Shown here piece after piece: positions 1-19,517 of a stretch of DNA of 64,000 nt. The number at the start of each line of letters is the position of its first letter. The stretch's first letter is position 1. The notes below the pieces were generated by a model. The model ran no database searches. It was not told where the DNA came from and saw only the letters and a program-made list of their open reading frames with translations. The translations under genes were made by a program, and so were the position numbers. The DNA lies in the NCBI RefSeq assembly GCF_006385875.1, contig NZ_VFSU01000022.1, positions 1 through 64,000 on the forward strand, read 5' to 3'. The stretch comes from Sandaracinobacter neustonicus. Lineage in GTDB: Bacteria > Pseudomonadota > Alphaproteobacteria > Sphingomonadales > Sphingomonadaceae.

Positions 1-214
1 GGTCTTGGATGTCGCCGCCGATGCGGTTCCACACCCTGCCTGGAGCCGATGGCCGATCTTCCAGCGCCTCCGGCCCACCTTCAAGGTAGCGGTCATACCA
101 GCGATAGAACGTCCGGCGGGCGATACCGAGCTTGTCCAGCGTGCGTTTGGCGGGCAGGTGCGACTGCTCGACGATCCGGATGATCTCGAGTTTTTCGGAT
201 GCGGGATACCTCAT
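1..214 (-). CDS. IS3-family transposase OrfB, N-terminal part (runs off the window)
   Basis: Reading frame on the minus strand from the ATG at 214, which overlaps the orfA stop, and open to base 1 (71 codons). The translation begins MRYPASEKLEIIRIVEQSHL and continues with KRTLDKLGIARRTFYRWYDR and LEGGPEALEDR. This is the helix-turn-helix segment that precedes the rve/DDE integrase core in IS3-family OrfB proteins. The catalytic DDE domain would lie beyond the left edge, so I cannot say whether the copy is intact. Identified by family pattern and position behind orfA. Confidence 0.8.
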   Translation of the reverse strand, partial: MRYPASEKLEIIRIVEQSHLPAKRTLDKLGIARRTFYRWYDRYLEGGPEALEDRPSAPGRVWNRIGGDIQD

Positions 215-597
215 TCGTCGTCGCCCCCATCCGCGATCATGCTTTTTTTCAGCAGACGGTTTTCGAGTGTCAGGTCGGCCACGCATTCCTTCAAGGCGCG
301 GGCCTCGCGGCGCAGGTCCTGCACCTCGCCGGTGGTCGCGGCACGAGCGGTGTCGCCGGCCAGGCGGCGCTTGCCAGCTTCCATGAACTCCTTCGACCAG
401 GTGTAGTACAGGCTCTGCGCGATGCCTTCCTTGCGGCACAGCTCGGCAATGCTGTCCTCGCCGCGTAGCCCATCGAGCACGATGCGGATCTTGTCCTCCG
501 CCGAGAAATGGCGACGCGTCTGCCGCCGAATGTCCTTCACCACCCGCTCAGCAGGGGCCTTGGTCGGCGATTTTTTCAAGGAGGGTTGGGCCTTCAT
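211..597 (-). CDS. IS3-family transposase OrfA (helix-turn-helix subunit)
   Basis: This is the DNA-binding OrfA of an IS3-family transposase. The protein has a basic N-terminus, a transposase_8-type helix-turn-helix (RHFSAEDKIRIVLDGLRGED, then ELCRKEGI and YYTWSKEF) and a C-terminal leucine-zipper-like helix (LRREARALKECVADLTLENR) used for oligomerisation. I start it at the ATG at 597 (MKAQPSLKK); an in-frame start 33 bases upstream is possible but adds atypical sequence. Its stop overlaps the orfB ATG. In this family a programmed frameshift or re-initiation at such an overlap makes the OrfAB transposase; that is inferred here. About 128 residues, normal for the family. Confidence 0.85.
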   Translation of the reverse strand: MKAQPSLKKSPTKAPAERVVKDIRRQTRRHFSAEDKIRIVLDGLRGEDSIAELCRKEGIAQSLYYTWSKEFMEAGKRRLAGDTARAATTGEVQDLRREARALKECVADLTLENRLLKKSMIADGGDDE

Positions 598-779
598 CTT
601 CGTTCCTTCGTCACTACGACGAAGCCCCAACCCTCCTTAAATCACAACCTCAAATCTGTGCCATTGGTGCTGACGGCGGACAGCGCTGCGACTGGTGACG
701 GAGCTGGTGCCGGGCTGAAGGCCATGTTTCCGGATCAGGCTGCTCAGGACAGTCGACTTTCCTCGCGCACAGTCCGGAT

Positions 780-2463: not shown

Positions 2464-2480
2464 AACTGTATATATTGGTT
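2464..2480. promoter_or_regulatory. Predicted GntR operator, copy 1
   Basis: AACTGTATATATTGGTT lies in the divergent gap between the MFS gene and the GntR-type regulator (gap 2223-2638, otherwise without a gene). It matches the copy at 3464-3480 at 16 of 17 bases. The core is a GTATATAC-like imperfect dyad with AA..TT ends. Binding by the neighbouring regulator is inferred from position and repetition. Confidence 0.6.
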
Positions 2481-2674
2481 ATGGAAATGACAATGCCCTC
2501 CACATCTCAAGATCGGCTCCCGCCCATGAGCATGGTCTTTTCCACCAGGCGTACGCCGGCCGTCGCGGTCGCAGCTGCACGTTTGACAGGCGCCGTTGTT
2601 CCCTTTCAGGGGCATGCAAAATACATTGAAGCTACATCATGGGAGATCGGCTTTTGGTTGGCCCGGAAACGCAC

Positions 2675-3448: not shown

Positions 3449-3463
3449 CGCCTCACATCTCTA

Positions 3464-3480
3464 AACTGTATATACTGGTT
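3464..3480. promoter_or_regulatory. Predicted GntR operator, copy 2
   Basis: AACTGTATATACTGGTT, 67 bases before the amidohydrolase start and exactly 1000 bases from the first copy. One mismatch in 17 to that copy. It lies in the only promoter-sized gap upstream of the amidohydrolase gene. Confidence 0.6.
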
Positions 3481-3546
3481 GAGTGATGATGACATTTTGT
3501 CTATCGTCGCTCCGACGACCGCAATGGCGGCGACTGGGAGGTTCCT

Positions 3547-4848: not shown

Positions 4849-5171
4849 GGGGTGTGTCGGCCATTTGCCGACACATTCTCCCCAAGACCTGGCAGAAGGT
4901 TGAAGGCGGCAAACGGCCGCAACGAAACCCTCCCCGATTGACGATCACGGTGTCGCTTCGAACTCGCCCCCCTGGGCGAATAGACCATCGAGGCCAAACC
5001 CGATCAAGTTTTGGCGCTACACTCGTCGGGATTCCGATCACCAAAGTCACAGATGAAAAGTCTGATAAGAGGGCCGCTGGTGAAGGGTTTCCACCACTAT
5101 AATCGGGTGGCGGGTTTCAAAATCCGGGTCATTCTCACCTATCGTGCTCACGAACGCGGGCTGGCGTGTCG
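4849..5171. other. Gap without a recognisable gene
   Basis: 323 bases between the amidohydrolase stop and the transposase fragment. It begins with a short dyad (TGTCGGCCATTTGCCGACA, 4855-4873), seven bases after the stop codon, which could act as a terminator stem although no T-run follows. The rest shows only short shadow frames. It probably contains mobile-element debris. Confidence 0.5.
4855..4873 (+). terminator. Possible hairpin terminator after the amidohydrolase gene
   Basis: TGTCGGC-CATTT-GCCGACA forms a perfect 7-bp stem with a 5-base loop directly after the stop codon at 4848. There is no clear T-run, so factor-independent termination is uncertain. Confidence 0.45.
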
Positions 5172-5418
5172 GCCCGCACCCAGGCGATCCATGATCGGCG
5201 CCCTGTCCATCGTGGTGGCCTGATCCACCACGGCGACCGCGGCAGCCAATATGTCTCGATCAAGTATACCGAGCGCCTTGCCGAGGCAGGCATCGAGCCG
5301 TCGGTCGGGAGCGTTGGCGACAGCTACGACAACGCCTTGGCTGAGACGATCAATGGCCTTTACAAGGCCGAGGTCATCTATCGACGAGGACCGTGGAGAT
5401 CCTTTGAAGCCGTTGAAT
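5172..5418 (+). pseudogene. IS3-family transposase OrfB fragment (DDE core remnant)
   Basis: About 80 codons from the end of the DDE integrase core of an IS3-family OrfB. Visible are the second aspartate (LIHHGDRGSQYVSIKYTERL), the conserved GSVGDSYDNALAETINGLYK with the final glutamate, and GPWRSFEAVEY. Both sides are missing: homology starts abruptly near 5172, and after EAVEY the expected WVDWFNNRR segment is replaced by unrelated sequence. No complete element or inverted repeats are recognisable. With the IS copy at the left edge it brackets the GntR/MFS/amidohydrolase cargo and shows past rearrangement just before the phosphonate operon. Confidence 0.85.
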
Positions 5419-5700
5419 ATCCGGCTCATGCGCGCCGACAACCCGGAAGGCTGGCAGGCGATCGTTGAGGCCGCCGATATGCGGCGGGGGGAACCGCGAG
5501 ACTATCGCTGCATGTCAGAAGGCCGCCGCCAAGGCCAAGGAACCGGTCAGATGCATAGTCAGGATAGCGAACCCGGCATCCGGACCGTATTGCACGGCGC
5601 GAATGCTTGATCACGCCAAGCGTGCCTGACGTCTCCGCATAGCTCTTCCTTCAGGAAGGATGAACCAACACACCGAATGCCGCATTTTGTTGCACGAGAT

Positions 5701-5745
5701 TATCGTTTAATATATCAAATAAACACGGTTTAATTAATAACGATA
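5701..5745. promoter_or_regulatory. Predicted LysR-type operator/promoter of the phnX operon
   Basis: AT-rich island in a GC-rich background, 60-105 bases before phnX. It contains TATCGTT (5701-5707), 13 bases, then AAACACG (5721-5727), and an inverted copy AACGATA at 5739-5745. The same two boxes at the same 13-base spacing occur between the lysR and phoD genes (10050-10076). It also holds a GTTTA...TAAAC dyad (5705-5724), consistent with LysR-type binding sites. Regulation by the LysR protein encoded at 9080-10030 is inferred. Confidence 0.65.
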
Positions 5746-5806
5746 CTGTCATGTCACGCCCATACGGTCAGTCTTTGAAGTTCAGAAATCCACACTATGG
5801 GCCCAT

Positions 5807-6649
5807 ATGTCAGATCAACAAAAATCCTCCTTCTTCGGGGCGTGGCCGGTCGCCGTTTCCGCCGTCATCTTCGATTGGGCGGGCACCATCCTCGATTTCG
5901 GGTGCATCGCGCCGGTAGCGGCCTTTCGGGAAGCCTTCACGAGAACCGGTGTCGCAATCAGCGAAGCCGAAGCGCGAGAGCCGATGGGCGCAGCGAAGCG
6001 CGAACATGTCGAGCTGATCCTCGCCCAGTCCGCCGTGCAGACGCGCTGGCTGAACCAGATGGGGCAGGCATCGACCCAGGCCGATGTGGATCGCATCTAT
6101 GAAGCCTTTCTGCAGATCGATGCCGCCGGTTCCGCGCGGTACAGCACTCTGATCCCGGGCGCTCTGGAGACCGTGAGTGCGCTCCGGCGAAGGGGCGTCG
6201 CGATCGGCAGCACCACCGGCTATCCGCGCAGTATCATGGACATGCTCATGCCGCTGGCGCAGGCGCAGGGCTATTGCCCGGACCATTGCGTCACGGTGAG
6301 CGAAGTCGCGCATGGGCGCCCGTGGCCGGATATGCCGCTCGCCAATCTGCTTGCGTTGAATGCCCCGGATGTGCGCGGATGCGTGGTCGTCGATGACAGT
6401 CCGAGCGGTCTCCTGTCCGCGCGGGCGGCGGGCATGTGGGCGGTGGGGATCTCCGTGAGCGGCAACGAGGTCGGGCTGTCCCTCGATGACTGGAACGCCC
6501 TGGATGATCGTGCGCGCAGCGACAGGCGGGATGCGGCATGCCGGGCATTGCGTAACGCCGGCGCACACTATGTCATTGACAGCGTTGCCGATCTGATTCC
6601 TGTGATCGAAGACATTGAGCAAAGGCTCGCGGCCGGTGACCAGCCATGA
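5807..6649 (+). CDS. phnX: Phosphonoacetaldehyde hydrolase (phosphonatase)
   Basis: Cytoplasmic HAD-superfamily enzyme that hydrolyses the C-P bond of phosphonoacetaldehyde to acetaldehyde and phosphate. Family landmarks are present: nucleophile D23 in VIFDWAGTILDFG, the Schiff-base lysine K64 with H67 in MGAAKREH, GSTTGYPR at 134-141, the HGRPWPDM loop near 169-176, and the acidic motif VVDDSPSG at 194-201 followed by AGMWAVGISVSGNEVGLS. Length of 280 is normal. The usual aspartate at the start of the specificity loop appears as SEVAHGRP, a minor change. Its stop overlaps the next gene's ATG (ATGA), so it is co-translated with the alcohol dehydrogenase. No 2-aminoethylphosphonate transaminase (phnW) is present in the window, which points to an alcohol route into phosphonoacetaldehyde. 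Confidence 0.93.
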   Translation: MSDQQKSSFFGAWPVAVSAVIFDWAGTILDFGCIAPVAAFREAFTRTGVAISEAEAREPMGAAKREHVELILAQSAVQTRWLNQMGQASTQADVDRIYEAFLQIDAAGSARYSTLIPGALETVSALRRRGVAIGSTTGYPRSIMDMLMPLAQAQGYCPDHCVTVSEVAHGRPWPDMPLANLLALNAPDVRGCVVVDDSPSGLLSARAAGMWAVGISVSGNEVGLSLDDWNALDDRARSDRRDAACRALRNAGAHYVIDSVADLIPVIEDIEQRLAAGDQP

Positions 6650-7770
6650 ACAAGTGGTCCTTCCACAATCCGGTTCATCTGCATTTCGGCGAAGGCGTGC
6701 TTGACGATATCGGCACGCTCCTTAGCGGCAGGTCATATCTTCTCGTGACACATCGGGACGATGTGATGTCGCCATGGCGCGACCGTATCGCCATGCATTG
6801 CGGTGCCCCCGATCTGGCGCTGGACGAGATCGAGCCGAACCCTTCGCTGGAAATGTTGCGCCGTCTGACGACTGTCATGAGCGCGGCCGATATCGAGCCC
6901 GAGGTGATCATTGCCCTGGGCGGCGGATCCGTGATCGACACTGCGAAGTTTCTTGCTGCGGGCAGAGGCTGCTATCGGGCCGCCGTGCAGTATATCGATG
7001 GCGGCACACCGCTTCCACGCCGTCCGCTGCCGATTATCGCCATTCCAACCACGGCCGGGACAGGCAGCGACCTCACCAAATGGGCGACGGTCTGGGATAC
7101 GGTGCGCGGACGCAAGCTGTCACTGGAACATGACGGGCTCTACCCGGAAGCAACGGTCATCGATCCATTGCTGATGGCAAGCCTGCCGTGGTCGGTCACG
7201 TTGTCGAGCGGACTGGATGCTTTGTCGCATGCGCTGGAAAGCATCTGGAACGTCAACGCCAATCCACTGACCCGGCGCTTTGCGGTCAATGCAGCACGCG
7301 ACATCATGGCAGCATTGCAGCGCCTCGGCAGGAACCCGGATGACCGGAATGGTCGCCTGCAGATGGCGCTGGGCGCGATGCGGGCTGGCCTTGCCTTCTC
7401 GAACACGCGCACGGCCGTAGCCCATAATATCTCCTATCCGCTGACCCTGAACCATGATGTGCCGCATGGCATTGCCTGTTCCTTCTGCCTGCCTGAGGTG
7501 ATGGAGGCCGTGATCGGCATCGATGCCGCCAGCGACGAAGCGCTGGCGGAGATATTCGGCGTGCTGCCCGATGCACCGGCTCGCCTGAGAGCATTTCTGA
7601 ACGATCTGGATGTGCCTGCCGCCGCAGCGGCGTTCGGCGTCGAGGACAGTGAGTGGCGCATGATCGTGGAGCGCGCCTTCGCCGGTCCACGCGGGCGGAA
7701 CTTCATCGGCGCGCAGGCCCGCTTCCCCTGGCGCACCGGGGCGCCGGATGATGATCGAGGCCAGTCGTGA
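6646..7770 (+). CDS. Iron-type alcohol dehydrogenase, probable phosphonoacetaldehyde reductase / 2-hydroxyethylphosphonate dehydrogenase
   Basis: Group III (Fe-ADH) oxidoreductase of 374 residues. The NAD(P)-binding segment is GGGSVIDTA (92-100) and the phosphate loop PTTAGTGSD (134-142). Metal ligands are D191, H195, H260 and H274 (GLDALSHALES, AHNISY, DVPHG). The WNVNANPLT segment resembles the phosphonoacetaldehyde-reductase branch (PhpC-like) known from phosphonate antibiotic biosynthesis. It overlaps phnX by four bases and the transporter by four bases, so in this context it should run in the oxidative direction, turning 2-hydroxyethylphosphonate into the PhnX substrate. The direction and substrate are inferred from operon context; acetaldehyde reduction after PhnX is the main alternative. 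Confidence 0.8.
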   Translation: MNKWSFHNPVHLHFGEGVLDDIGTLLSGRSYLLVTHRDDVMSPWRDRIAMHCGAPDLALDEIEPNPSLEMLRRLTTVMSAADIEPEVIIALGGGSVIDTAKFLAAGRGCYRAAVQYIDGGTPLPRRPLPIIAIPTTAGTGSDLTKWATVWDTVRGRKLSLEHDGLYPEATVIDPLLMASLPWSVTLSSGLDALSHALESIWNVNANPLTRRFAVNAARDIMAALQRLGRNPDDRNGRLQMALGAMRAGLAFSNTRTAVAHNISYPLTLNHDVPHGIACSFCLPEVMEAVIGIDAASDEALAEIFGVLPDAPARLRAFLNDLDVPAAAAAFGVEDSEWRMIVERAFAGPRGRNFIGAQARFPWRTGAPDDDRGQS

Positions 7771-9062
7771 ACGAAGGCAGACCCATCCAGCGAGTAAGCA
7801 ATGTCCCGGCCTTCCGGCGCGCCCAGCATCGGATGCTGTTCGCCGCGATGTTCTGTTATCTGTTTTTCTACACGGGCCGCCAGACGTTCGGTTTCGCGAT
7901 TCCCGGCATTCAGGCGGAGTTCGGCGTTTCGAAGGAAGCGCTAGGCTGGGTCAGTGCCGCCCTGCTATGGTGCTACGCCATCGGTCAGGCGATCAACGGC
8001 AACATGGCGGACAAATTCGGCGGACGCCGCGTCATGAGCGCGGGCGCGATCCTTTCCTGCCTGGCGAACTGGGCGGTCAGTTTTTCAACCTCCATCTTCA
8101 GTCTCGGCACGCTGTGGGGTGTGAACGGACTCTTCCAGTCGATGGGCTGGGCACCGGGCAGCCGGCTTCTGTCCAACTGGTTCGGGCGGCATGAACGCGG
8201 CATGGTGTTCGGCTGGTATGTGTTCGCGGCCGGCATGGCGTCGGTCCTCTCATTCGTGACCTCGATCATCGTCGTACATAGTCTGAGTCTGGACTGGCGA
8301 TGGATCTTCCGCCTGCCGGTGATCCTCATGCTCGTCGGAGGCGTGATCTTCTATCTGGTGGCGCGGGAGACGCCCGAGGAGATGGGCTTCCAGTCACCGC
8401 ATGACGATATCTCGCCGGAAGACGCCGATCCGGTCGCCGGCGCCGTCGGGGACGAGACAAGCCGGGTGCGTTACAGGGCTGTGCTGTCAAACTGGCGGCT
8501 CATCCTGGCTAGCCTGGCCATCGGTTTCCAGAACAGCGCACGCTACGGGCTACTCGTCTGGGTCCCGGTTCATTTTCTGGGTGACGGAAGCGGACCGGAA
8601 TCCTCTACTTCAATCATCGCCCCTGAATGGATCAGTATCGCGCTCCCGCTCGGCATGGCGATCGGCGCGGCCACGAATGGGTGGGTGTCCGACAACATCT
8701 TTGGTTCGAAGCGCTATGTCGCCATCGTCCTCTACATGGTGCTGGCGGCCATGACCTCGCTCATCATGTTCACCATCCCGGCAAGCGATATCTATCTCGG
8801 GATCGCCACATTGTTTCTCTGCGGCTTTTTTGTCTACGGTCCGCAGTCGTCCTTCTGGGCCTTGTGCCCCGATCTTGTCGGGCACAGGCGGGCCGGTACA
8901 GCGATCGGCGTCATGAACTTCTTCGCCTATTTGTTCGCAGGTCTCGGTGAACCCCTGATCGGTCGCTTCATGGATGCCCATGACAATACATCACTGGTGT
9001 TCCTGATCGTTGCCGGCGCCAGCGCGGCCAGTGCATCATTGGCCTTGTTTATCCGCCGTTAG
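7767..9062 (+). CDS. MFS transporter, organophosphate:phosphate antiporter (OPA) family
   Basis: Inner-membrane transporter with about 12 hydrophobic helices, 431 residues. OPA-family marks include FFYTGRQTFGFAIPGIQAEFG near the N-terminus, GNMADKFGGRR (motif A) and GLFQSMGWAPGSRLLSNWFG followed by ERGMVFGWYVFAAG, the signature loop of GlpT/UhpT/PgtP-like carriers. It starts with GTG overlapping the dehydrogenase stop (GTGA). As the third gene of the phnX operon it is the likely uptake system for the phosphonate, a sugar-phosphate-like anion, possibly in exchange for phosphate released by PhnX. No ABC phosphonate importer (PhnCDE) is seen. Substrate is inferred from context. Confidence 0.85.
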   Translation: MNEGRPIQRVSNVPAFRRAQHRMLFAAMFCYLFFYTGRQTFGFAIPGIQAEFGVSKEALGWVSAALLWCYAIGQAINGNMADKFGGRRVMSAGAILSCLANWAVSFSTSIFSLGTLWGVNGLFQSMGWAPGSRLLSNWFGRHERGMVFGWYVFAAGMASVLSFVTSIIVVHSLSLDWRWIFRLPVILMLVGGVIFYLVARETPEEMGFQSPHDDISPEDADPVAGAVGDETSRVRYRAVLSNWRLILASLAIGFQNSARYGLLVWVPVHFLGDGSGPESSTSIIAPEWISIALPLGMAIGAATNGWVSDNIFGSKRYVAIVLYMVLAAMTSLIMFTIPASDIYLGIATLFLCGFFVYGPQSSFWALCPDLVGHRRAGTAIGVMNFFAYLFAGLGEPLIGRFMDAHDNTSLVFLIVAGASAASASLALFIRR

Positions 9063-9079
9063 GCGGGCTGCAGAGTGAG

Positions 9080-10030
9080 TTAATCGGTGCCGGCTTCATC
9101 GGGAGGCTGACGGCGTTTCGCAGGCTTTGCCGTGCGCGCTTTAGGCGAGATGGCCATGCCCTTTCGCGGGCCGGTTCGTTGCAAGGCCTCGAAGAAGGCG
9201 GCGATCATCCGGCTGCGTCGCCGCTCACGCAGGCAGCAGACATAGATATGTGTCAGGACTGGCGCGTCGATAATGGGGAGCGGATGCAACAGTTCATCCG
9301 GCACATATTCCGATTCCGAGACAGTACCGACGCCAAGACCGCGAATGACGGCTTCGCGAATGGCCTCCCTGCTGCCGATCTCCATCGCCACACGCGGCTT
9401 TAGGCCTATCGCGACCAGCCCCTCTTCCAGCGCGCGGCGCGTGGTCGAACCGCGCTCACGCATGAGCAGCTTTTCCCTGCCGAGCGCTTCAAGTCCGATA
9501 CTCCTGAGACCCGCCAGCCGGTGATCGCGGTGAACGAAAGCCATGACCGGATAGCTCGCATAATGCTGGACGTGAAACCGGTCATCATCGGTATCCCGCG
9601 CCAGGATGCCGACGTCGCAGCCATAGCTGCCGAGGTCGTGCAGAACAGCTTCGGAATTGCCGAAGGTCATCGCGAGATAGACGTCAGGATAGCGGGTGTT
9701 GAACGCCTCGACGATTTCGATGACATGATAGGGGCTGACGGCGCCGATCTTCAGTTCACCGCTGCGCAGGCCGGCGCTGTCCTTCAGCATCATCGTCGCG
9801 TCGTCTTCCAGATCGACCATCCGGCGCGCGAACTGCAGCAATTCGCTCCCCACCTGCGTCAATTCGATCCTTCGCCCGCGCCGTTCGAAAAGGCGGACGC
9901 CATGCTCCTCCTCCAGCACCTGGATTTGTGAGGTGATCGTCGTCTGGCTCATCCGAAGTGCACGCGCCGCCGCCGTGAACCCATTGTGGCGGGCGACCGC
10001 AATGAAGCTGCGGAGCTGGTTCAGTGTCAC
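9080..10030 (-). CDS. LysR-family transcriptional regulator of the phosphonate block
   Basis: Regulator of 316 residues with an N-terminal winged helix (LNQLRSFIAVARHNGFTAAA, then RALRMSQTTITSQIQVLEEE) and a LysR_substrate periplasmic-binding-like domain from about residue 90 (GELKIGAVSPYHVIEIVEAF ... CDVGILARDTDDDRFHVQHY). The C-terminus is a basic tail (PKARTAKPAKRRQP). It converges on the transporter gene (18-base gap) and diverges from phoD. One copy of the conserved TATCGTT-N13-AAACACG element lies just upstream of its own start and another before phnX. Autoregulation and control of both operons are therefore likely. Relatives are found next to phosphonatase genes; the effector could be the phosphonate itself (inference). 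Confidence 0.88.
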   Translation of the reverse strand: MTLNQLRSFIAVARHNGFTAAARALRMSQTTITSQIQVLEEEHGVRLFERRGRRIELTQVGSELLQFARRMVDLEDDATMMLKDSAGLRSGELKIGAVSPYHVIEIVEAFNTRYPDVYLAMTFGNSEAVLHDLGSYGCDVGILARDTDDDRFHVQHYASYPVMAFVHRDHRLAGLRSIGLEALGREKLLMRERGSTTRRALEEGLVAIGLKPRVAMEIGSREAIREAVIRGLGVGTVSESEYVPDELLHPLPIIDAPVLTHIYVCCLRERRRSRMIAAFFEALQRTGPRKGMAISPKARTAKPAKRRQPPDEAGTD

Positions 10031-10049
10031 TTCGTAAACCCATCGAAAA

Positions 10050-10082
10050 TATCGTTACATATATATATAAAACACGTTTGAA
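10050..10082. promoter_or_regulatory. Predicted LysR operator between lysR and phoD
   Basis: TATCGTT (10050-10056), 13 AT-rich bases, AAACACG (10070-10076), then TTTGAA. It matches the site before phnX in both boxes and in spacing. It sits 20 bases upstream of the lysR start on one side and 133 bases before the phoD start on the other. Confidence 0.65.
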
Positions 10083-10214
10083 TCGCACACAATAGAGTCA
10101 CGCGTGCGGCCTATTGCATCCACGATGAAGGGGCAATGGCAGGGTGAGCGCATCGCGGTCACTGCATTTCGCCCGGACTCAGGGTTCGCAACCAGACCGA
10201 GGGAAAATTTCGCA

Positions 10215-11843
10215 ATGCGCCCGATCAGCCGTCGATCGCTCATCGAAGCCACATTGCTGGGTGCAGGCCTGTCCGCCGTCATGCCCGCCGCCGCCTGGGC
10301 ATGGCCGACACGCGGCTTTACGCATGGCGTCGCCAGTGGCGAGCCGTCCGCAGACGCCGTCACACTCTGGACGCGCTATGTAGGTGCCGATGCGCAGAGC
10401 GTTCGGCTCAGGATCGAAATCGCCGAGGATGAGCGCTTCCAGTCAATCGTAGCGACCAGTGAAGCCGTCGCCGGCCCGGAAACCGACTATTGCGCGCATA
10501 TCCGGGCCGCCGGACTTCGCCCGGGACGCCGCTATCATTATCGCTTCACGACGCCCGGCGGTGAGATGTCGCCGGTCGGTCGGACCAAGACGCTGCCCGC
10601 CGGCCGACTAGCGCGATATCGCATCGCCGTGATGTCCTGTTCGAACATCACCTCCGGTTGGTTCACGGCCTACAGCCATGCCGCCGCGCGCGACGATATC
10701 GACCTGATCGTGCATCTGGGCGACTATATCTACGAATCCCCGACGACGCGCTCGGACGCGCTGGCCGAACTCGCGAAGCAGCGAGATGTCCGGCCGTTTG
10801 GCGAGCTCGAAACACTTGCCGACTATCGGCTGCGCTACGCCAGCTACCGCAACGATCCAGCCCTTCAGGAACTGCATCGTCGCCATCCATGGGTGGTCAT
10901 GTGGGACGATCACGAGACGGCCAACAACAGCTGGACCGGCGGCGCCAGCAATCACAGCGACACGGAGGGACTGTGGGCGCTGCGCGCCGCCGCCGGTGTC
11001 CGTGCCTTCCGCGAATGGCTTCCGGTCAGTGGTGACTATGCCGCCTATCAGCTTGGCGACCTGGCGACCATGTACAGGCTGGAGACCCGCCTGCTGGCCC
11101 GCACCAGGCAACTCGATCCCGAACCGATGCTCCGGCGCGCAGCAAATCCGGAGCAGGCCGTCGCTGATTTCTTGCGAGGGCCGCTGGCCGATCCAGACCG
11201 GCAGCTGCTCGGCCCAACGCAGCTTGCGTGGCTGGCCGACGGCATGAAGGCTTCGGTCGCGACGGGTACGAAATGGCAGTTGCTGGCGCAGCAGGTCATC
11301 ATGGCACCGCTCGTGCTGCCTTCGATTACGTCAGGCTGGCATGCCCCCGGTCTGACACTCGATGCCAAGACAAGCGCCGAGATTGACCTCGCCAATCGAG
11401 TCAGCCGTGCCGGCATGCCCATCAGCATGGATCGCTGGAGTGGTTATCCCGCCGAACGGACGCGCGTGCTGGAGGCCGCGGCGGCTGCCGGCGCCAATCT
11501 CGTCACGCTGAGTGGTGACAGTCACAATGCCTGGGCCAGCGATCTGCGGCTCGGCAGCCAGCCTGCTGGCGTTGAGCTTTGCGTGCAGTCCGTTTCGTCA
11601 CAGGGCATGGAGAAAAACTTCGGCGGCGATCCGGCCAGCATTGCGCGCGATTTCCTGGCGACAAATCCCGACCTGCGTTGGTGCGACACCAGTCGCAGGG
11701 GGTACATGGTCGTCGATCTCACACCCACGAGCCTGTCCTGCGAGTGGCTGTTTTTCCCGTCTCGCCATGAAAATTCACATCGGCTGATCGGCACACACAG
11801 GCTGACATCTGATCTGCGCAGTCATCGGCTGACCGCCGCCTGA
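10215..11843 (+). CDS. PhoD-like alkaline phosphatase/phosphodiesterase, Tat-exported
   Basis: Exported phosphoesterase of about 542 residues in the PhoD family, which cleaves phosphomonoesters or diesters with an Fe/Ca centre. A twin-arginine signal opens the protein (ISRRSLIEATLLGAGLSAVM, cleavage near AAAWA). The PhoD N-terminal domain follows (GFTHGVASGEPSADAVTLWT), then the metallophosphatase core with HLGDYIYE, WDDHETANNSW and LSGDSHNAWASD. The start at 10215 is chosen because the Tat signal begins there and GAGGG precedes it; the frame itself is open from 10104. It leads a run of exported proteins transcribed from the second LysR-type promoter. Probable role: removing phosphate or phosphonate esters in the periplasm. 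Confidence 0.9.
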   Translation: MRPISRRSLIEATLLGAGLSAVMPAAAWAWPTRGFTHGVASGEPSADAVTLWTRYVGADAQSVRLRIEIAEDERFQSIVATSEAVAGPETDYCAHIRAAGLRPGRRYHYRFTTPGGEMSPVGRTKTLPAGRLARYRIAVMSCSNITSGWFTAYSHAAARDDIDLIVHLGDYIYESPTTRSDALAELAKQRDVRPFGELETLADYRLRYASYRNDPALQELHRRHPWVVMWDDHETANNSWTGGASNHSDTEGLWALRAAAGVRAFREWLPVSGDYAAYQLGDLATMYRLETRLLARTRQLDPEPMLRRAANPEQAVADFLRGPLADPDRQLLGPTQLAWLADGMKASVATGTKWQLLAQQVIMAPLVLPSITSGWHAPGLTLDAKTSAEIDLANRVSRAGMPISMDRWSGYPAERTRVLEAAAAAGANLVTLSGDSHNAWASDLRLGSQPAGVELCVQSVSSQGMEKNFGGDPASIARDFLATNPDLRWCDTSRRGYMVVDLTPTSLSCEWLFFPSRHENSHRLIGTHRLTSDLRSHRLTAA

Positions 11844-11894
11844 CCCCGCTTCACATCCATTCACACCTTCAAGCTCTTTTCTGGAGACCAGTTC

Positions 11895-14678
11895 ATGCAT
11901 TCTGCGAACGCTGACAGGCCGGGATACCGGCTGTTGCGCACCACGGCCGTCATTCTTGCGACGACTGTTTCATTGCCAAGTCTCGCGCTTGCAGGCGAAT
12001 TGCGGGGAACCGTGACCAATCCTGCACTTTCACGGCCATTGAGCGGTGCTCGTGTCACGGTCGATGGCATCGCGCAGCCGGTGTGGACCGATGCAGATGG
12101 CCGTTATCGTCTGACGGATATCCCGGCCGGCGAGCATGAACTGCGCATCGAATTGCCCGGCTACACGCCCTTCAGCGCCAGCATCGTCATCCCCGAAACC
12201 GGCGACGTGACGCGCGACGTGGAAATCGCGCTCGCCGGCGGTTCGGAAAGTGAAATCGTCGTTCTCGGGTCGCGGGCCTCGCGGCTGGCCGCCCTTGAGC
12301 GCAAGCGCTCGCTCCCCGTGATCGCCGACGTGGTTGCCGCCGATACGATCGGGCAGCTTCCCGACTATAACACGGCGCAGGCTCTCCAGCGCCTTCCGGG
12401 CATATCCGTCCAGACCGATCAGGGCGAGCCGCGCTATGTGGTGGTGCGCGGCGTCGATCCCAATCTCAATCAGGTGACGGTGGACGGCAATCTCGTCGGC
12501 ATTCCCGAGGCGGAAGGGCGTCGGGTCGCGCTCGACACCATCCCGTCCGATCTTGTCGCCGCTATCGAAGTGGTGAAGGCCGTGACGCCGGACTATGATG
12601 CCAACGCGGTTGGCGGCAGCATCAACATCGTCACGCCCACGGCTTTTGACCGTACCGACGATTTCCTTTTCGCTTCAGCCAAGATCTCTTATTCCGACGC
12701 GGCCGACAAGTTCGGTTATGGCGGCAGTGTGACTTATGGCGCCAAATTCGGTGCTGACGATCAGTTCGGCATCGTCGCGGCGGGCAGCTATTTCAAGCGG
12801 TTCATTCACAGCCAGCTTGCCGGACCGCGCGGCTGGACGGCCTTCGGCCAGGAGATGGCGCCGACCTCGTTCGTGCTTTACGATTATCGCATCATGCGTG
12901 AGCGGATCGGCGGGATCGTCAATCTTGACTGGCGTCCCGACGACGACACCCGTTTCTATCTGCGTACCATTTACAACGAATATACGGATGAGGAGGAGCG
13001 CGACCAGTTCAACTGGGATCTGGCGCGCGGGACGCAGACCTTCCCCGCCGCCGACCAGATCGCCTGGTCTCGTGGACGCGCGACGCGCGAATTCCGCCAG
13101 AACAACCAGACCCAGAAGCTCTACAATATCTCACCGGGCACGGAACTCACGCTGGGCAATGTGCAACTGGACCTCAACTACACCTATGCCCGTGCGCAAG
13201 AGCACACCCCCGTCCGTACCGATATCGAGTTCCGGTCTACCGATACCCTGTCCAGTACGCTTGACCTCACCCAACCGAGCCCGACGTTCGTCACCTATAA
13301 TCCCGCGGCGCTCGATCCCGCAGCATATCCGCTGCGCCGCATCCGCATGCGGAGTGAAGAGATTGACGAAGACCTCCACGCCTTCCGCGCGGACCTTCGC
13401 TATGATATTCCAAATATGGAGGGTAGCTTCCTAAAGTTCGGCGGTAAGTTCACCGATCGCAAGAAGCATCGCGATAATCGCCAGTCACTCGAGACGCCGA
13501 CCACCGCCGTGACCTTCGCCCAGACGGGTGCCTTCACAGCGGACATCCCCTTCTTCGACGGCGTGTATGATTTCGGTCCGGGCATGAACTATCAGGGGGT
13601 CCTCGATTATTTCGCATCCCGCCCCGGCTCGCTGGCACTCGATACGGCTGCGACCGCTATCAACGACCTCAGGCTGGACTATGACATCCATGAGAAGATT
13701 TATGCCGGCTATGGCATGGCAAGCCTGCAGCTTGGCGAACTGACCGTGATCGGCGGCGTGCGCGTGGAAAAGACCGATGGAAGCTATAGCGCCTTCGCGA
13801 TCCGTGACAGCGATGGCGACGGCACGTTGGAGCCATCGGACATCCTGCCGGTCCAGTTCAGCACCAACTACACGGACGTGCTGCCGAGCCTTCATCTCAA
13901 CTATCGGCTCCAGCAGGATTTGCTGGTGCGCGCGGCATGGACGAACACGATCGGCCGCCCCAACTATGATGCACAGGTGCCGACTTTTGAGGAAGAGGAT
14001 GGCTCCGGTACGGCCGGAAATCCGAATCTGCAGCCTTATCGCGCCATGGGCCTCGATCTGTCGCTGGAATATTATCCGGATGCGGACACACTTTTCTCTC
14101 TGGCGGGTTTCTACAAGAAGATCGAAAATCCGATTTTCACGCGGACGATCCAGAATACCAGCTTCGCCGGTGTGCCGCTGCTTACGCTCTCCCAGCCGCA
14201 AAATGCCGACTCCGGCGAGTTGCTTGGTATTGAGGCGGCAATGCAGAAGCGCTTCACTTTCCTGCCCAGGCCGCTCGATGGCCTGGGTCTGTCGGCGAAC
14301 GTGACCTATGTGGACTCCAGCGTCGATGTGCCGGGCCGGGAGACAGAGGATCTGCCCTTTTTCCGTCAGTCCAAATGGCTCTTCAACGCTGCTCTTTTCT
14401 ACGAGAAGGGCCCCTTCGAGGCCCGCGTCGCCGTCACCTATCGCGATGACTATCTGGAAGGCGTCGGGGCAAGCAAGGCAGGGGACACCTATGTGAAAGG
14501 CCGGACTGTCGTCGATGCCCGCGTCTCCTATCGCGTGACGGATCGCATCGAAGTCTTCGCTTCGGGCGCCGATCTGAACAACGCGTCGGTCATCATCTAC
14601 CAGGCCACGCCAAGCCAGCTTGTTACCGATGAAGTCTACTCCTTCACGGCGGATTTCGGGGTCAACATCCGGTTCTGA
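11895..14678 (+). CDS. TonB-dependent outer-membrane receptor
   Basis: Outer-membrane active transporter of 927 residues. A signal peptide (LLRTTAVILATTVSLPSLAL-A) is followed by a carboxypeptidase-regulatory-like beta domain (GELRGTVTNPALSRPLSGAR ... YRLTDIPAGEHELRIELPGY). The plug (IGQLPDYNTAQALQRLPGIS, VVVRGVDPNLNQVTVDGN) and a long barrel ending in aromatic NIRF complete it. GGAG precedes the ATG. The extra N-terminal domain is typical of receptors for organic nutrients rather than siderophores. It lies 52 bases after phoD and about 100 before the GDPD gene. It probably imports the organophosphorus substrate handled by these periplasmic enzymes; the ligand is inferred. Confidence 0.9.
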   Translation: MHSANADRPGYRLLRTTAVILATTVSLPSLALAGELRGTVTNPALSRPLSGARVTVDGIAQPVWTDADGRYRLTDIPAGEHELRIELPGYTPFSASIVIPETGDVTRDVEIALAGGSESEIVVLGSRASRLAALERKRSLPVIADVVAADTIGQLPDYNTAQALQRLPGISVQTDQGEPRYVVVRGVDPNLNQVTVDGNLVGIPEAEGRRVALDTIPSDLVAAIEVVKAVTPDYDANAVGGSINIVTPTAFDRTDDFLFASAKISYSDAADKFGYGGSVTYGAKFGADDQFGIVAAGSYFKRFIHSQLAGPRGWTAFGQEMAPTSFVLYDYRIMRERIGGIVNLDWRPDDDTRFYLRTIYNEYTDEEERDQFNWDLARGTQTFPAADQIAWSRGRATREFRQNNQTQKLYNISPGTELTLGNVQLDLNYTYARAQEHTPVRTDIEFRSTDTLSSTLDLTQPSPTFVTYNPAALDPAAYPLRRIRMRSEEIDEDLHAFRADLRYDIPNMEGSFLKFGGKFTDRKKHRDNRQSLETPTTAVTFAQTGAFTADIPFFDGVYDFGPGMNYQGVLDYFASRPGSLALDTAATAINDLRLDYDIHEKIYAGYGMASLQLGELTVIGGVRVEKTDGSYSAFAIRDSDGDGTLEPSDILPVQFSTNYTDVLPSLHLNYRLQQDLLVRAAWTNTIGRPNYDAQVPTFEEEDGSGTAGNPNLQPYRAMGLDLSLEYYPDADTLFSLAGFYKKIENPIFTRTIQNTSFAGVPLLTLSQPQNADSGELLGIEAAMQKRFTFLPRPLDGLGLSANVTYVDSSVDVPGRETEDLPFFRQSKWLFNAALFYEKGPFEARVAVTYRDDYLEGVGASKAGDTYVKGRTVVDARVSYRVTDRIEVFASGADLNNASVIIYQATPSQLVTDEVYSFTADFGVNIRF

Positions 14679-14779
14679 CCCTCGCCATGTGAACTGCCGC
14701 CCGGCACGCACTGGTTCCATGCAGTACGGCATGTGACCAGCGCGCGTCGGCCAGCCACTTGCTTCTCTGGAGGTTTGCG

Positions 14780-15784
14780 ATGATCCGGACCGGCCATGTC
14801 ACGCGGATCGCTGCCATGTTCTCGCTTGGCATGTGCACCACCCCTTTGCCGGCCGCGCCATCCGGTCATGCCGCCGACTATCCGGACTGGCATGTCGAAC
14901 TTGTTGCCCACCGCGGACGCTCACCGGATCGACCGGAAAACACGCTTGCGGCGTTTCGACAAGCAATCGCTCTGGGCGTGGACATCATAGAGATCGACCT
15001 GCGCATGACGGCAGACGGAGAGATCGTCATCCTGCACGATCCAACGGTCGATCGCACGACCGATGGCACAGGCGATGTCTCGACTCTCACTCTCGACCAG
15101 GTGAAGGCTCTGGATGCGGGCGGCAGGTTTGATGCCCGCTTCGCAGGAGAGCGCATTCCGACCTATGAAGAGGTTCTGGACCTTGTGACGGGAACCAGAG
15201 TGAAGCTGCTGCTCGATATCAAGTTCCAGAATGCTGGAAATATCGAACAGGTGGTCCGTTTGACCGAAGCTCACGGGCGGCAACTGGATGTCGTCGTCGG
15301 CGTTCGCAGCTTTGAACATCTGAGAGAATTTCAAGCTCTCAATCCGAATATTCGGACACTTGGCTTCATAACATCGCCGGATCAGATCGAGGCTTTTGCC
15401 TCAGCTGGCGTGGACATCATCCGGCTGTGGTCCATAACGGAAGCAGATGGTTCGACGACCGCCGCCGCCACGACGACCCGTCCGACCGAGAACTGGATCT
15501 ATGATGATCGGGATTCCCCGGCGTGCAAAGCAGCGGTTGCGCGGCGCCAACATGATTACGAAACCGGTCGCAGGGATGATCCAGGTTCGCGATCATGTCT
15601 GGTGCAGAAGGTTCATGACCTTGGCTTGCCTGTATGGGTGTCCGCGATCGACGCCCCTTATGCGGATCTCGATGAACTCATCCAGTTAAAAGTGAATGGA
15701 ATTCTCACCGATTGGCCGGAAGTAATGAAAATTCTCAGTATTGAAATAGAAAGTTTGAAGCGCACACACACCAGAAGGAGATAG
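14780..15784 (+). CDS. Glycerophosphodiester phosphodiesterase family protein, exported
   Basis: Phosphodiesterase of 334 residues with the GDPD TIM-barrel pattern: catalytic HRG (ELVAHRGRSPDRPENTLAAF), acidic metal ligands IIEIDLRMTADG and ILHDPTVDRTTDGTG, a later KLLLDIK strand and closing DWPEVM. It should split a phosphodiester of an alcohol such as glycerol or, here, perhaps a phosphonate ester. The ATG at 14780 follows GGAGG at good spacing and starts a signal peptide (MIRTGHVTRIAAMFSLGMCT, processing around PAAPSGHA), so the enzyme is periplasmic or secreted. Its place between a TonB receptor and a second phosphoesterase suggests stepwise hydrolysis of an imported ester. Confidence 0.9.
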   Translation: MIRTGHVTRIAAMFSLGMCTTPLPAAPSGHAADYPDWHVELVAHRGRSPDRPENTLAAFRQAIALGVDIIEIDLRMTADGEIVILHDPTVDRTTDGTGDVSTLTLDQVKALDAGGRFDARFAGERIPTYEEVLDLVTGTRVKLLLDIKFQNAGNIEQVVRLTEAHGRQLDVVVGVRSFEHLREFQALNPNIRTLGFITSPDQIEAFASAGVDIIRLWSITEADGSTTAAATTTRPTENWIYDDRDSPACKAAVARRQHDYETGRRDDPGSRSCLVQKVHDLGLPVWVSAIDAPYADLDELIQLKVNGILTDWPEVMKILSIEIESLKRTHTRRR

Positions 15785-15939
15785 TATCTCCCACTATCGA
15801 ATTTTGCCAATCCTCTGGAAGTCCTACCCGAGGATCGACGAATTTCGGTTCGTCCTTCGGCATTTTCTTACCGCGGCTTCAGCCTCAGGTCGAGTGACGT
15901 GCTTCCCTGAAATGTGACCGATTTTGAGGAGAATTGACG

Positions 15940-16974
15940 ATGAGGAAGCTGCTGTCGATCGCAACATTGGCGGTTGTGCTGTGCGCTGGTGTGGAATCTC
16001 AATCCCATGCCCAGGCTCCCGGATTGTACTGGTGCAAAGGGAACACCCATACCCACACGAACAATTCAAGCGATGGCGACAGCAACCCCGATGTTGCCGC
16101 CCGCTGGTATAGAGAGAATGGGTATCAATTTGTATTCATTACCGATCATGACGAATATCTGACCGATGTCGCGCCGTTGAACGCATTGATCGGGAGGCGT
16201 GACTGGTTCCTGATCCTGCCCGGTCAGGAGATCGGAGAAATACTCATTCGCAAGGGTCGGCTTCCGGGCGATCTTCATCTCAACGCGCTGTTTACGAACG
16301 AAGTGATCCGGCCGGCAGCAGGCGGCACGACATTGGGAGATGCCGTCGCTCCAATCCTGGAGCAAGGCGCCCTGGTTCAGATCAATCATCCCGTTTACAA
16401 ATGGTCGCTGAATCCGCCCGATCTTGAGGATGTGCCCGATGGCGCATTGATCGAAGTCTGGAACGGTCTGGACCCAAGCAACAATCTGGGCGGCGATGAC
16501 GGCAACGGCGATGTGAAACCTTCAGCCGAAGGCTATTGGGATTATCTCCTTGGTCGCGGCAAGATTGTATGGGCCGTGGGTGCCGACGATGTGCATATCT
16601 TTCAGGGCAATCATCCCACACCCGGCAGGGCGTGGATCATGGTGCGCGCGCCCGAGCTTACGCCCACTGCTATCAAGACTGCGATGATGAAGGGGGACTT
16701 CTATGCATCGAACGGCGTCGCGCTGAGCGACATCGCCATCGACGCAAACAGCCTGACTGTTACAATCCCGGCGGCCAAAAACGGTCCGCGTTATCTCACG
16801 CGCTTCACCGGACAAGACGGCAAGGTGCTTGCCGAAATCGCTGGTCTCAGACCGAGCTATCGCTTCACCGGCAATGAGGTCTATGTCCGCGCCACCGTCA
16901 CCGACAGCAATGGCAAAAAGGCATGGACCCAGCCCGTTTTTCGCGATGGTCGTGCGCGCAAGGTCCAGCCTTGA
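15940..16974 (+). CDS. PHP-domain phosphoesterase, exported
   Basis: Predicted exported metal-dependent phosphoesterase of 344 residues. After a signal peptide (MRKLLSIATLAVVLCAGVES, cleavage near SHAQA) comes the PHP motif I CKGNTHTHTNNSSDGD and motif II FVFITDHDEY. Later histidines occur in INHPVYKW and AVGADDVHIF, with GRAWIMVRAP near the end. PHP enzymes use a trinuclear metal site to hydrolyse phosphate esters. The ATG at 15940 has GAGGAG at ideal spacing. It lies 155 bases after the GDPD gene, the last member of the exported phosphoester set, with island-end sequence downstream. Substrate unknown; proposed to act on the phosphodiester or its product. Confidence 0.82.
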   Translation: MRKLLSIATLAVVLCAGVESQSHAQAPGLYWCKGNTHTHTNNSSDGDSNPDVAARWYRENGYQFVFITDHDEYLTDVAPLNALIGRRDWFLILPGQEIGEILIRKGRLPGDLHLNALFTNEVIRPAAGGTTLGDAVAPILEQGALVQINHPVYKWSLNPPDLEDVPDGALIEVWNGLDPSNNLGGDDGNGDVKPSAEGYWDYLLGRGKIVWAVGADDVHIFQGNHPTPGRAWIMVRAPELTPTAIKTAMMKGDFYASNGVALSDIAIDANSLTVTIPAAKNGPRYLTRFTGQDGKVLAEIAGLRPSYRFTGNEVYVRATVTDSNGKKAWTQPVFRDGRARKVQP

Positions 16975-17069
16975 CGATGGCCACCACCCGGAGCTGTTGT
17001 TGCGGGCTTATGATGCCATAATAATTCAAATAGTTGGCCAGATATACATCCAAGCTATAGCCCTAATAG

Positions 17070-17510
17070 ATGTCCGACGAGGATGGGTCCCTATTCGTGC
17101 CGAATCTGACACTGCTGCATAGGGATGACTGGTCAGACCATACTCGCCAAAGGCAGCTCCGGCACCAAGTGACAAGGACAGCGATCCGAATGAAAGCCGC
17201 CGCCTCGCCCACCAACGAAGTGAAGGCGGCAATCGTAGAGGCTGCGAGCAGGGGGGAATGCGAACCGGAAGACACCTTTGTCTTCCATGGCCTGCGGAAG
17301 AACGCCTGCTGCTATCTGATAGAGATTGGCCTCAGTGACAGTCAGGTTGGAGGCATGCTGGGTATGAGCCCGGAAATGGTCCGCTATTACAGCCGTAGGA
17401 AGCGCATTCTGATGCTGGTGAAAAGCGGCGCTGCTACCGTGCTGGCGGGTAACATCGTCGGCCTATGGAACGAGCCGGGGGGAACTGAAGTCGCAGCCGG
17501 GGGGAACTAA
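17070..17510 (+). pseudogene. Truncated tyrosine recombinase (phage-type integrase), C-terminal part
   Basis: Only the C-terminal part of a site-specific integrase is left. It shows FHGLRKNACCYLIEIGLSDS (catalytic box II arginine region), then VGGMLGMSPEMVRYYSRR, where the usual H-x(n)-Y end is replaced by tyrosines. The N-terminal core-binding domain and box I arginine are absent, and the sequence upstream of about 17160 does not look like integrase. It points at, and ends 37 bases from, the 3' end of a tRNA-Glu gene. That is where integrative elements of this kind recombine, so this is probably the decayed integrase of the island that fills the left part of the window. Confidence 0.8.
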
Positions 17511-17546
17511 CTGCCAGCCGCTGAAAATTCCCCAACCTTTTCAAGC

Positions 17547-17622
17547 TGGTGACCCCTACGGGACTCGAACCCGTGTTTTCGCCGTGAAAGGGCGACGTCC
17601 TAGACCGCTAGACGAAGGGGCC
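17547..17622 (-). tRNA. tRNA-Glu (anticodon TTC)
   Basis: On the minus strand the gene begins GGCCCCTTCGTCTAGCGG and has the anticodon stem-loop CGCCC-TTTCACG-GGCG region with anticodon TTC. The T-arm is CGGGTTCGAGTCCCG. The acceptor stem GGCCCCT/AGGGGTC closes with one G-T pair. CCA is encoded at 17547-17549. Length is 76 with CCA. It is the probable attachment site of the adjacent island. Confidence 0.95.
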
Positions 17623-17738
17623 GTGCTTGCGGAGAGGCGGCGGATTAGCCGGGGGGCGGCTGCTCGTCAAGCGATTCACGTCGGGAAATGGCTGCGATGG
17701 CGGAAATGCTTGGATATCAGCGCAAATGCAAAGATGGT

Positions 17739-19517
17739 TCAGGCTCGGGCGGCGTCTTCCAGTTGCAGTTGTGCGCGGGTGCGGCCCTGCCATTCGTCAG
17801 CGGTGATGCGGCCGGCCAGATGCACCGGCTCTGATCCGGCGCCCATCAGCATCTGGCCCAGTTCGCCTTCCAGCGCGCGAAAGGCAATGCCTTCTACCCG
17901 TCCGCCGTCCGGGCCGCTGGCCACGAAGCGCAGGTGCGTTTTCGGTTCCGTGCGCCCCACCGGATCGCATTTCAGCAGCCGCACCGGGCCGACCGCCACG
18001 CGCGGCGAGGGCCAGCCCTGCCCATAGGGGCCGCACGCCTCCAGCGCCTGCGCCAGCTCCGGCGTGACGGCGCGCGGCGCGACGGCCAGATCGATGGACA
18101 GCACCCGTTCCGATTCCGCCGCTGCCACCGGCCCGGCCAGATGCTCGGCCAGCCAGGCCGTGAAGGGTTCCAGCTGGCCCGGATCGAGCGTGACGCCGCA
18201 GGCCATGGCGTGGCCGCCGCCTTCGCGGATCAGCCCATGCGCCTTCGCCGCCAGAACCGCCGCGCCAAGATCGACCCCCGGAATGGAGCGGCCAGACCCT
18301 TTGGCGACACCGTCTTCGCCCAGCGCCAGCACCAGTGCCGGACGGTTCAGCCGCTCTTTCACCCGCGCCGCGACGATGCCCACCACGCCCGGATGCCAGC
18401 CCTGCCCGGCGACCACCGCCACCGGGCTGTTGCCCTGCGTTTCCAGCGCCTGTGCCAGCGCCTCCGCCGTGACGGCAGCCTCGATCGCGCGGCGTTCGTG
18501 GTTCAGCCTGTCGAGTTCCTGCGCGATGGCCGCGGCTTCGTCGCCGTCTTCGCTCGCCAGCAGGCGCACGCCCAGATCGGCCTGCCCCACCCGCCCCCCG
18601 GCGTTGATGCGCGGCCCCAGATGGAAGCCCAGATCATCCGAGCGCGGCGCGCGATCCAGTTTGGCGATATCGGCCAGCGCCGTCAGCCCGACGGAACGGC
18701 GGTTCGCCATCCGTCGCAGCCCCAGCGACACCAGCGCCCGGTTCAGCCCCAGCAGTGGCACCACATCGGCCACCGTGCCCAGCGCCACGATGTCCAGCCA
18801 TTCGGACAGGTTCGGTTCCGCTGTCACCGCGAAGTGACCGCGCTGGCGAAGCTCCCGGTTCAGTGCAACGCCAACAAGAAAGGCCAGCCCGGCCGTGCAC
18901 AGCGTGCCGAAGCTGGCCGCTTCCGGCGTTTCGTCCAGCCGGTTGGGGTTCAGGATGCCCAGCGCCGGGGGCAGCGCGGTGGAGGCTTTGTGATGATCCA
19001 CCACCAGCAGATCCAGCCCGGCATCCCGCGCGGCCTCCAGCGGGCCGAACGCCTGCGTGCCGCAATCCAGCAGCAACAGCAACTGCGCGCCCTGCCGTTG
19101 CAGTTCCAGCAGCGCGGCGGCGGACGGGCCATAGCCCTCCAGAATCCGGTCCGGGATATAGGGCGTCACATCGGCGCCCAGCGCGCGCAGATGCCGCCAC
19201 AGGAAGGCAGCGGAGGTCGCGCCGTCCACGTCATAATCGGCGAACAGCACGATCTTCTCGCCCCGCTGCACGGCGTCTGCCAACCGGTTCGCGACGACGT
19301 CCATATCCTGAAAGATGGAAGGATCGGGCAGCCAGTCCCTGAGGTTGGGTTTCAGCGTACGCTGGATATCGGCAGGCGCGCAGCCGCGGCTGATCAGCAG
19401 TTGCGCGGCCAGTTCGTCCACTCCCATCCGCTCGGCCGCGCCCAGCGGCAGCGGCCGTGCCCGCCACACCCAGCTGCGGGACGTGGCGGAGCGGGTGACG
19501 TTGAGAACAGGTTCCAT
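17739..19517 (-). CDS. recJ: Single-stranded-DNA-specific exonuclease RecJ
   Basis: Cytoplasmic 5'-3' single-strand exonuclease used in recombination and mismatch repair, 592 residues, of normal length. The DHH phosphoesterase domain shows ADYDVDGATSAAF, LLLDCGT and VVDHHKAS. The DHHA1 domain shows GRINAGGRVGQADLGVRLL and GGGHAMACGVTLD. A C-terminal OB-like region follows (RVAVGPVRLLKCDPVGRTEP). It is encoded after modC with a 71-base gap and may be in the same transcript. It ends about 115 bases before the tRNA-Glu gene, on the core side of the island junction. Confidence 0.95.
   Translation of the reverse strand: MEPVLNVTRSATSRSWVWRARPLPLGAAERMGVDELAAQLLISRGCAPADIQRTLKPNLRDWLPDPSIFQDMDVVANRLADAVQRGEKIVLFADYDVDGATSAAFLWRHLRALGADVTPYIPDRILEGYGPSAAALLELQRQGAQLLLLLDCGTQAFGPLEAARDAGLDLLVVDHHKASTALPPALGILNPNRLDETPEAASFGTLCTAGLAFLVGVALNRELRQRGHFAVTAEPNLSEWLDIVALGTVADVVPLLGLNRALVSLGLRRMANRRSVGLTALADIAKLDRAPRSDDLGFHLGPRINAGGRVGQADLGVRLLASEDGDEAAAIAQELDRLNHERRAIEAAVTAEALAQALETQGNSPVAVVAGQGWHPGVVGIVAARVKERLNRPALVLALGEDGVAKGSGRSIPGVDLGAAVLAAKAHGLIREGGGHAMACGVTLDPGQLEPFTAWLAEHLAGPVAAAESERVLSIDLAVAPRAVTPELAQALEACGPYGQGWPSPRVAVGPVRLLKCDPVGRTEPKTHLRFVASGPDGGRVEGIAFRALEGELGQMLMGAGSEPVHLAGRITADEWQGRTRAQLQLEDAARA

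Follow-up and report, generated by a model that had tools for sequence, protein, structure and literature searches.

The DNA to the left of a tRNA-Glu(TTC) gene, which recJ flanks on the other side, very probably ends in what remains of one end of an element that was inserted in this tRNA beside recJ by a phage-type tyrosine recombinase. The window analysed here is the first 64 kb of a contig (C22, 79,336 bases) in a genome of 3.65 Mb and 34 contigs, and its position 1, the contig start, is the left limit of the readable sequence. This tRNA is the sole one that ARAGORN calls in the window, and recJ lies on its core side, where the sequence-only reading had placed it (Table 1). What course of events could have led to this arrangement? 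In what we infer was a single insertion event, the integrase would have recombined about 40 bp of the 3' half of the tRNA, with the tRNA staying whole at the integrase side and a displaced 3' fragment lying at the far end. A later deletion would have removed roughly the first 78% of the integrase (270 of 348 profile positions). Left now are a complete-looking integrase-side att site (tRNA, core, element flank and paired repeats) and a dead integrase, with the far end absent from the assembly. One boundary of the foreign DNA is likely to lie at the tRNA 3' end, and the element is likely fixed.

Table 1. Features of the window in order of position
Feature	Position	Strand	Basis or remark
IS3-type TnpA, part of the IS3 piece that opens the contig (1 to ~690)	211..630	-	below NCBIfam cut-off
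IS3-family transposase fragment	5166..5468 (match 5166-5465)	+	below NCBIfam cut-off
Phosphonoacetaldehyde hydrolase	5807..6649	+	TIGR01422, over cut-off
Iron-containing alcohol dehydrogenase PsrA	6646..7770	+	TIGR03405, over cut-off
MFS transporter	7767..9062	+	best NCBIfam matches organophosphate transporters, below cut-off
LysR-type regulator	9080..10030	-	Pfam
PhoD-type phosphatase	10104..11843	+	Pfam
TonB-dependent receptor	11895..14678	+	Pfam
Glycerophosphodiester phosphodiesterase (GDPD)	14759..15784	+	Pfam
PHP-domain-like protein	15934..16974	+	below Pfam cut-off
ORF with truncated tyrosine recombinase	17070..17510	+	tblastn, profile search
14-bp direct repeat AGCCGGGGGGAACT, copy 1, putative arm-type site of the integrase	17473..17486	+	
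Copy 2 of the same repeat, 22 bp further on, putative arm-type site	17495..17508	+	
Element-side att flank	17511..17546	+	comparison with G250 junction
Putative att core (40 bp of the tRNA-Glu 3' part)	17547..17586	-	identical to displaced copy in G250 (C45:7252-7291)
tRNA-Glu (TTC), integration target	17547..17622	-	ARAGORN; CCA encoded; CCA end at 17547
recJ, conserved core-side neighbour	17739..19517	-	Pfam and genus comparison

The integrase remnant and its full-length relatives

The open reading frame whose stop lies 36 bases from the encoded CCA end of the tRNA is, judged from its sequence, a real C-terminal remnant of a tyrosine recombinase. General models see little of it: Pfam PF00589 (Phage_integrase) gives 18.7 bits (E 0.0016) under a cut-off of 27.1, a MerR model matches weakly at 14.6 bits, and NCBIfam returns no match. 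Such scores would suit an accidental similarity or a small HTH protein with no relation to integrases, a reading to which we give almost no credence, as the chance match is refuted by a profile of the integrase's own family. This profile was built from the eight best matches outside the genome itself in a search of 298 family genomes (E <= 0.001, matches in 15, own genome included); the proteins are 345-385 aa long, with start codons chosen by us, and one of them (L019) has no clear start. Searched against the six frames of 16500-17546 it finds the remnant with 91.0 bits (E 1.6e-29), and the alignment of the same eight proteins (A1), searched against the whole genome, with 92.7 bits (E 4.3e-26), in both cases over profile positions 271-339 of 348. 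A protein from G225 shares 58% identity over 81 residues, and the matching att flank and repeats described below also speak against chance.

Within the frame the family homology covers 17259-17465 by profile; by tblastn with 15 relatives as queries its start varies from 17175, reached with one relative, to 17286. C-terminal identity to the intact integrase of the genus relative G250 is 53% over 68 residues. Measured against the tyrosine recombinase pentad as set out in PMC8138268, the remnant keeps box II HxxR (HGLR) and the nucleophile Tyr (VRYY), as lambda-type enzymes do, and it lacks the core-binding domain and box I, the region of the box I Arg and the beta Lys being deleted. As elsewhere in this tRNA-Glu integrase family, a C-terminal match goes together with an integrase 3' end that faces the CCA end of tRNA-Glu. 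These results bear out the sequence-only reading, which had noticed a recombinase C-terminus without N-terminal domains beside tRNA-Glu and had called the integrase broken.

The missing part was looked for in several ways. The six-frame profile search of 16500-17546 finds no piece of profile positions 1-270 left of the remnant, and tblastn with the 15 relatives (E <= 10) over window 1-17600 finds elsewhere chance-level matches only, at E 0.022 or worse. The fragment occurs only once in the genome, and it has no match among plasmid records. Genome-wide, A1 also matches two open frames that PF00589 recognises as well, one of 365 aa on contig C34 (profile positions 13-254) and one of 396 aa on C30 (16-240); these are taken for other, intact integrases, not N-terminal remnants. 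A match on C31 was dismissed as chance-level.

Full-length relatives mostly sit in places much like that of the remnant. Their profile alignment has an invariant R195 and K219 in all eight proteins, which by position we take to be the box I Arg and the beta Lys. tRNA-Glu is present at seven of the 15 family loci outside the genome itself; a scan of genome contigs gave 60 loci, with tRNA-Glu at 20, other tRNAs at 23 and no tRNA at 17, and tRNA-Glu stands at 18 of the 23 best-ranked loci (L116-L138). Among more distant alphaproteobacterial relatives (L144-L173), tRNA-Lys lies beside 17 loci, and tRNAs for Arg, Pro, His, Cys and Thr also occur. In the measured loci the integrase 3' end faces the tRNA 3' end, mostly in the same orientation as in the window, and the end of the integrase match lies 14-135 bp from the tRNA in most and 751-1441 bp in four. 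Viral contigs yielded 73 and 37 loci in two scans with many contigs common to both; tRNAs were scanned at 37 of the 73 loci from the first, and tRNA-Glu was present at 8 of these 37.

In PHROGs, four full-length relatives match the phrog_1 integrase (E 1.4e-21 to 2.7e-30). All seven full-length relatives scanned fall below the cut-off of the Phage_integrase model or do not match it, and none of six proteins tested matches NCBIfam at E 0.01. In Sphingomonas faeni and S. sanguinis NBRC 13937 the integrases next to tRNA-Glu (L131, L137) look interrupted, and decay at tRNA-Glu sites may be recurrent. We found no paper that combines tRNA-Glu, integrase, Sphingomonas and genomic island.

The attachment site

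A search for the tRNA 3' end in eight relative genomes found a second copy in six (G225, G112, G122, G266, G217 and G250), and in all six the integrase lies between the two copies and adjoins one of them. Five of the pairs share one contig, 15.2 to 45.9 kb apart; the second copy in G250, 40 bp long, sits on another contig. In G017 there is no nearby second copy, and in G127 the integrase is about 12 kb from the nearest. The identical att stretch measures 40-52 bp; it begins near the last anticodon base and ends at the CCA or a few bases past it. These pairs, together with the relatives that lie beside tRNA-Glu, support the integration at a tRNA gene that had been proposed from the window. Next to the core the window also resembles the G250 junction, which is identical to window 17515-17550 at 31 of 36 aligned bases, the last four of them tRNA.

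In the window's own genome, two probes allowing up to 3 mismatches in 23 bases find no displaced tRNA-Glu fragment across the 3.65 Mb in 34 contigs: the tRNA itself is the only match, and an assembly gap is possible. A 301-base query likewise returns the site itself and chance-level matches only. The repeat of the tRNA 3' end that the sequence-only reading had expected at the other end thus has no counterpart in the assembly, and because no second tRNA-Glu fragment was found in it, the far end of the island is not demonstrable from these 3.65 Mb. Three candidates were tried and rejected. The match on C24 (81% over 31 bases, E 0.955) turned out to be a tRNA-Met gene and not a displaced att copy; C34, considered as the source of an empty site, is 78% identical over 6.4 kb to the G250 flank and has no att copy in 12 kb; and C17, considered as an empty site, is matched by the left flank of G101 at 66-69% and in scattered short places. 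The flank beyond the second att copy of G250 (L076, left of 7252), by eye an RND-efflux-like region, matches C34:71412-77797.

Beyond the flank, at the end of the integrase frame, lie the two perfect copies of the 14-bp repeat, at -70 and -48 from the CCA end. The relatives carry the same arrangement: a GGGGGNAA-like word occurs twice, 21-24 bp apart and with variation, which typically puts the two words roughly 73 and 50 bp away from the CCA end. It was counted in 33 hand-chosen junctions (the window, 7 family loci, 18 genome contig loci and 7 viral loci), a set that excludes loci with no nearby tRNA end and the repeat entries L133, L117, L138 and L248. The pair is present in 30 of the 33, where 200 shuffled sets averaged 5.5 and reached 11 of 33 at most; the count is partly circular, since the GGGGGNAA consensus was derived from the same junctions. 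The pair is absent from G017, L140 and L141. In a looser test, which compared the best direct repeat of any sequence with simple shuffles, the 5% level was reached in 14 of 26 junctions only. The fixed position of the repeats is a stronger point than their count: in 28 of the 30 junctions the first word starts 84-69 bases and the second 60-48 bases ahead of the CCA end, and in the other two (L135, L136) the best-scoring pair lies further out, at -96/-75. At the far-end att copies of six elements we see by eye one similar word each, followed by TTGA. From their position and layout the paired repeats are likely arm-type sites. Together with the att flank, the paired words suggest a test of element type for decayed islands that have lost their far end and most of the integrase. 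A promoter and terminator scan of 16900-17800 detected nothing.

The remnant belongs to a known kind of insertion scar, and its intact relatives show the family layout. It resembles the tRNA-targeting islands of Islander, as described in PMC4383910, in having a whole tRNA gene at the integrase side, a tyrosine integrase facing the tRNA, probably foreign DNA on the integrase side and a conserved core gene on the other. It differs from them in that neither a displaced piece of this tRNA at the far end nor an intact integrase gene was found, and it would therefore fall outside the putatively active islands as Islander defines them. The nearest single parallel is the G250 integrase (L020/L138), at the same tRNA-Glu and recJ, with a similar att flank and C-terminal homology; that integrase, unlike the remnant, is full length, lies about 720 bp from its tRNA and has its second att copy on another contig. 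This spacing counts against the insertion reading, as that of the window is unlike it.

The recJ-tRNA-Glu hotspot and the origin of the island DNA

Within the genus, recJ-tRNA-Glu is a variable chromosomal hotspot. A recJ-tRNA-Glu query matches all six genomes, and ARAGORN calls the tRNA gene in four of the five relatives, G284 reading N in places. Left flanks of about 17 kb each were fetched for G163, G101 and G250, of 2.3 kb for G284 and of 0.35 kb for G212; none of the window's left genes is in them, save the integrase end in G250. The comparison of gene content that had been proposed as a check thus loses similarity at the tRNA, and the relatives have no island-side DNA at the site apart from that integrase end, a feature that Islander also uses. 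G163 and G284 share with each other a different integrase region at the same tRNA-Glu, and several elements therefore use the site. The G163 protein (L073:2631-3863) is a full Arm-DNA-bind_3/Phage_integrase protein whose gene starts 163 bases past the tRNA-Glu 3' end and reads away from it. A search of 119 family genomes, with 28 loci examined, finds recJ flanking the tRNA in 10; the left flanks of the 28 are dissimilar, except for the integrase-bearing ones and the pair L188/L202. An ancestral left neighbour was not found, the flanks of G101, G163 and G250 being different. Several family genomes (G004, G047, G058, G061, G078, G098, G111 and G115) list two tRNA-Glu matches about 104-126 bases apart, start to start, where the window has a single tRNA.

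On the island side, the 17 kb look foreign, to go by a rare PHP-like gene and a lower GC content. Window 5807-16974 is a run of phosphonate and phosphoester genes, and further left, between the two IS3 pieces, lie an amidohydrolase, a GntR regulator and an MFS transporter. The PHP-like gene beside the integrase occurs in 3 of 298 family genomes, own genome included, and is absent from the five other members of the genus; the GC content is 54-64% to the left of the tRNA and 62-72% on the recJ side. This rarity and GC content support acquisition and do not tie the genes to this integrase; the phosphonate and phosphoester genes are probably acquired DNA in the hotspot. Of the island with cargo genes that had been read from the sequence, the foreign look of the 17 kb holds, and this particular element may have carried them in; we dropped the description of the whole of 1-17 kb as cargo, which is unproven. 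The same side had been described as IS-rich, which overstates two IS3 pieces in 17 kb among 14 larger ORFs examined. The contig starts within one of these pieces (window 1-690), which is a likely cause of the assembly break. Window 1-17510 matches 97 plasmid records, and in no case does the match reach 80% of the query. The best 15 of the 97 all fall within query 1-717, the IS3 piece, and in these 15 it is about 88-93% identical to copies on sphingomonad, Croceicoccus and Roseomonas plasmids.

Could the phosphonate and phosphoester genes have come as the cargo of this integrase, with only the integrase and the far end decayed since? We put this at slightly under an even chance. A precedent is the G112 element, which has an integrase of the same family and 15.2 kb between its att copies, and which carries an epoxide hydrolase, a LysR regulator and a methyltransferase-like ORF and, among nine ORFs scanned by Pfam, no recognised phage gene; the rarity of the PHP-like gene and the GC difference point the same way. 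The lack of a far-end att copy weighs against it, as does the finding that the two other genomes with the PHP-like gene have, in the 20-kb stretches fetched, neither the family integrase nor the rest of the module. The element could instead have been a temperate phage, by now mostly deleted, with the metabolic genes and IS pieces brought by other events at the hotspot or by rearrangement, a reading that also falls a little short of evens. It draws on the tail or primase genes that PHROGs finds in the related elements of G225, G266 and, weakly, G250, on the family members in IMG/VR contigs, and on the integrase of a different, Arm-DNA-bind_3 type at the same tRNA in G163. Its cost is that the deletion must have taken nearly everything: by Pfam and NCBIfam, with PHROGs run on the remnant, no phage gene is recognised left of the remnant, and the integrase is the only phage remnant recognised in the 17 kb.

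An integrase clade lacking the box II arginine

The relatives are integrases whose att layout can be read, and they include a clade with an unusual active site. The box III position of tyrosine recombinases is usually His or Trp. The 150 homologs tabulated are loci, some of them one element under two ids (e.g. L019/L117 and L020/L138), and five have a gap at box II, box III or both. The box II Arg is present in 137, combined at box III with Met (84), Gln (40), Lys (7) or His (6); the Arg occurs with a gap at box III in two more, and both positions are gaps in three. In the remaining eight the box II Arg is replaced by Gly (3, HGLG) or Ser (5, HGLS), and Lys occupies the box III position in every one of them. 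A tree of 60 places the seven distinct Arg-less rows on one side of a branch with support 100/99; a single origin therefore fits, and the eight are not independent. Two members, in G266 and G217, sit in elements with both att copies, and with these repeats intact the clade may therefore be active. That it would be an active tyrosine recombinase whose second catalytic cation has moved to another position is a tentative and rather unlikely proposal.

At the corresponding position, Arg-292 of Cre is essential on normal DNA, according to PMC2747268. The survey of tyrosine recombinases in PMC8138268 describes IntCTnDOT, with its first Arg substituted, and IntDes, with its first Arg shifted; a limited search, passages of the survey included, found no report of a loss of the box II Arg. 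The Arg-less loci are L021:652-1707, L022:730-1794, L024:673-1707, L139:5001-6056, L236, L237, L238 and L243.

The family shares with lambda-type recombinases (PF00589, phrog_1, 1z1g) the phrog_1 match of four full-length relatives, and the paired repeats resemble arm-type sites; it differs from them in its low or missing Phage_integrase matches and in the Met at box III. A modelled relative, the Arg-less L238 (mean pLDDT 82.4, pTM 0.54), is closest in the PDB to lambda integrase (1z1g), with E 3.9e-12 and a TM-score of 0.58 by query length.
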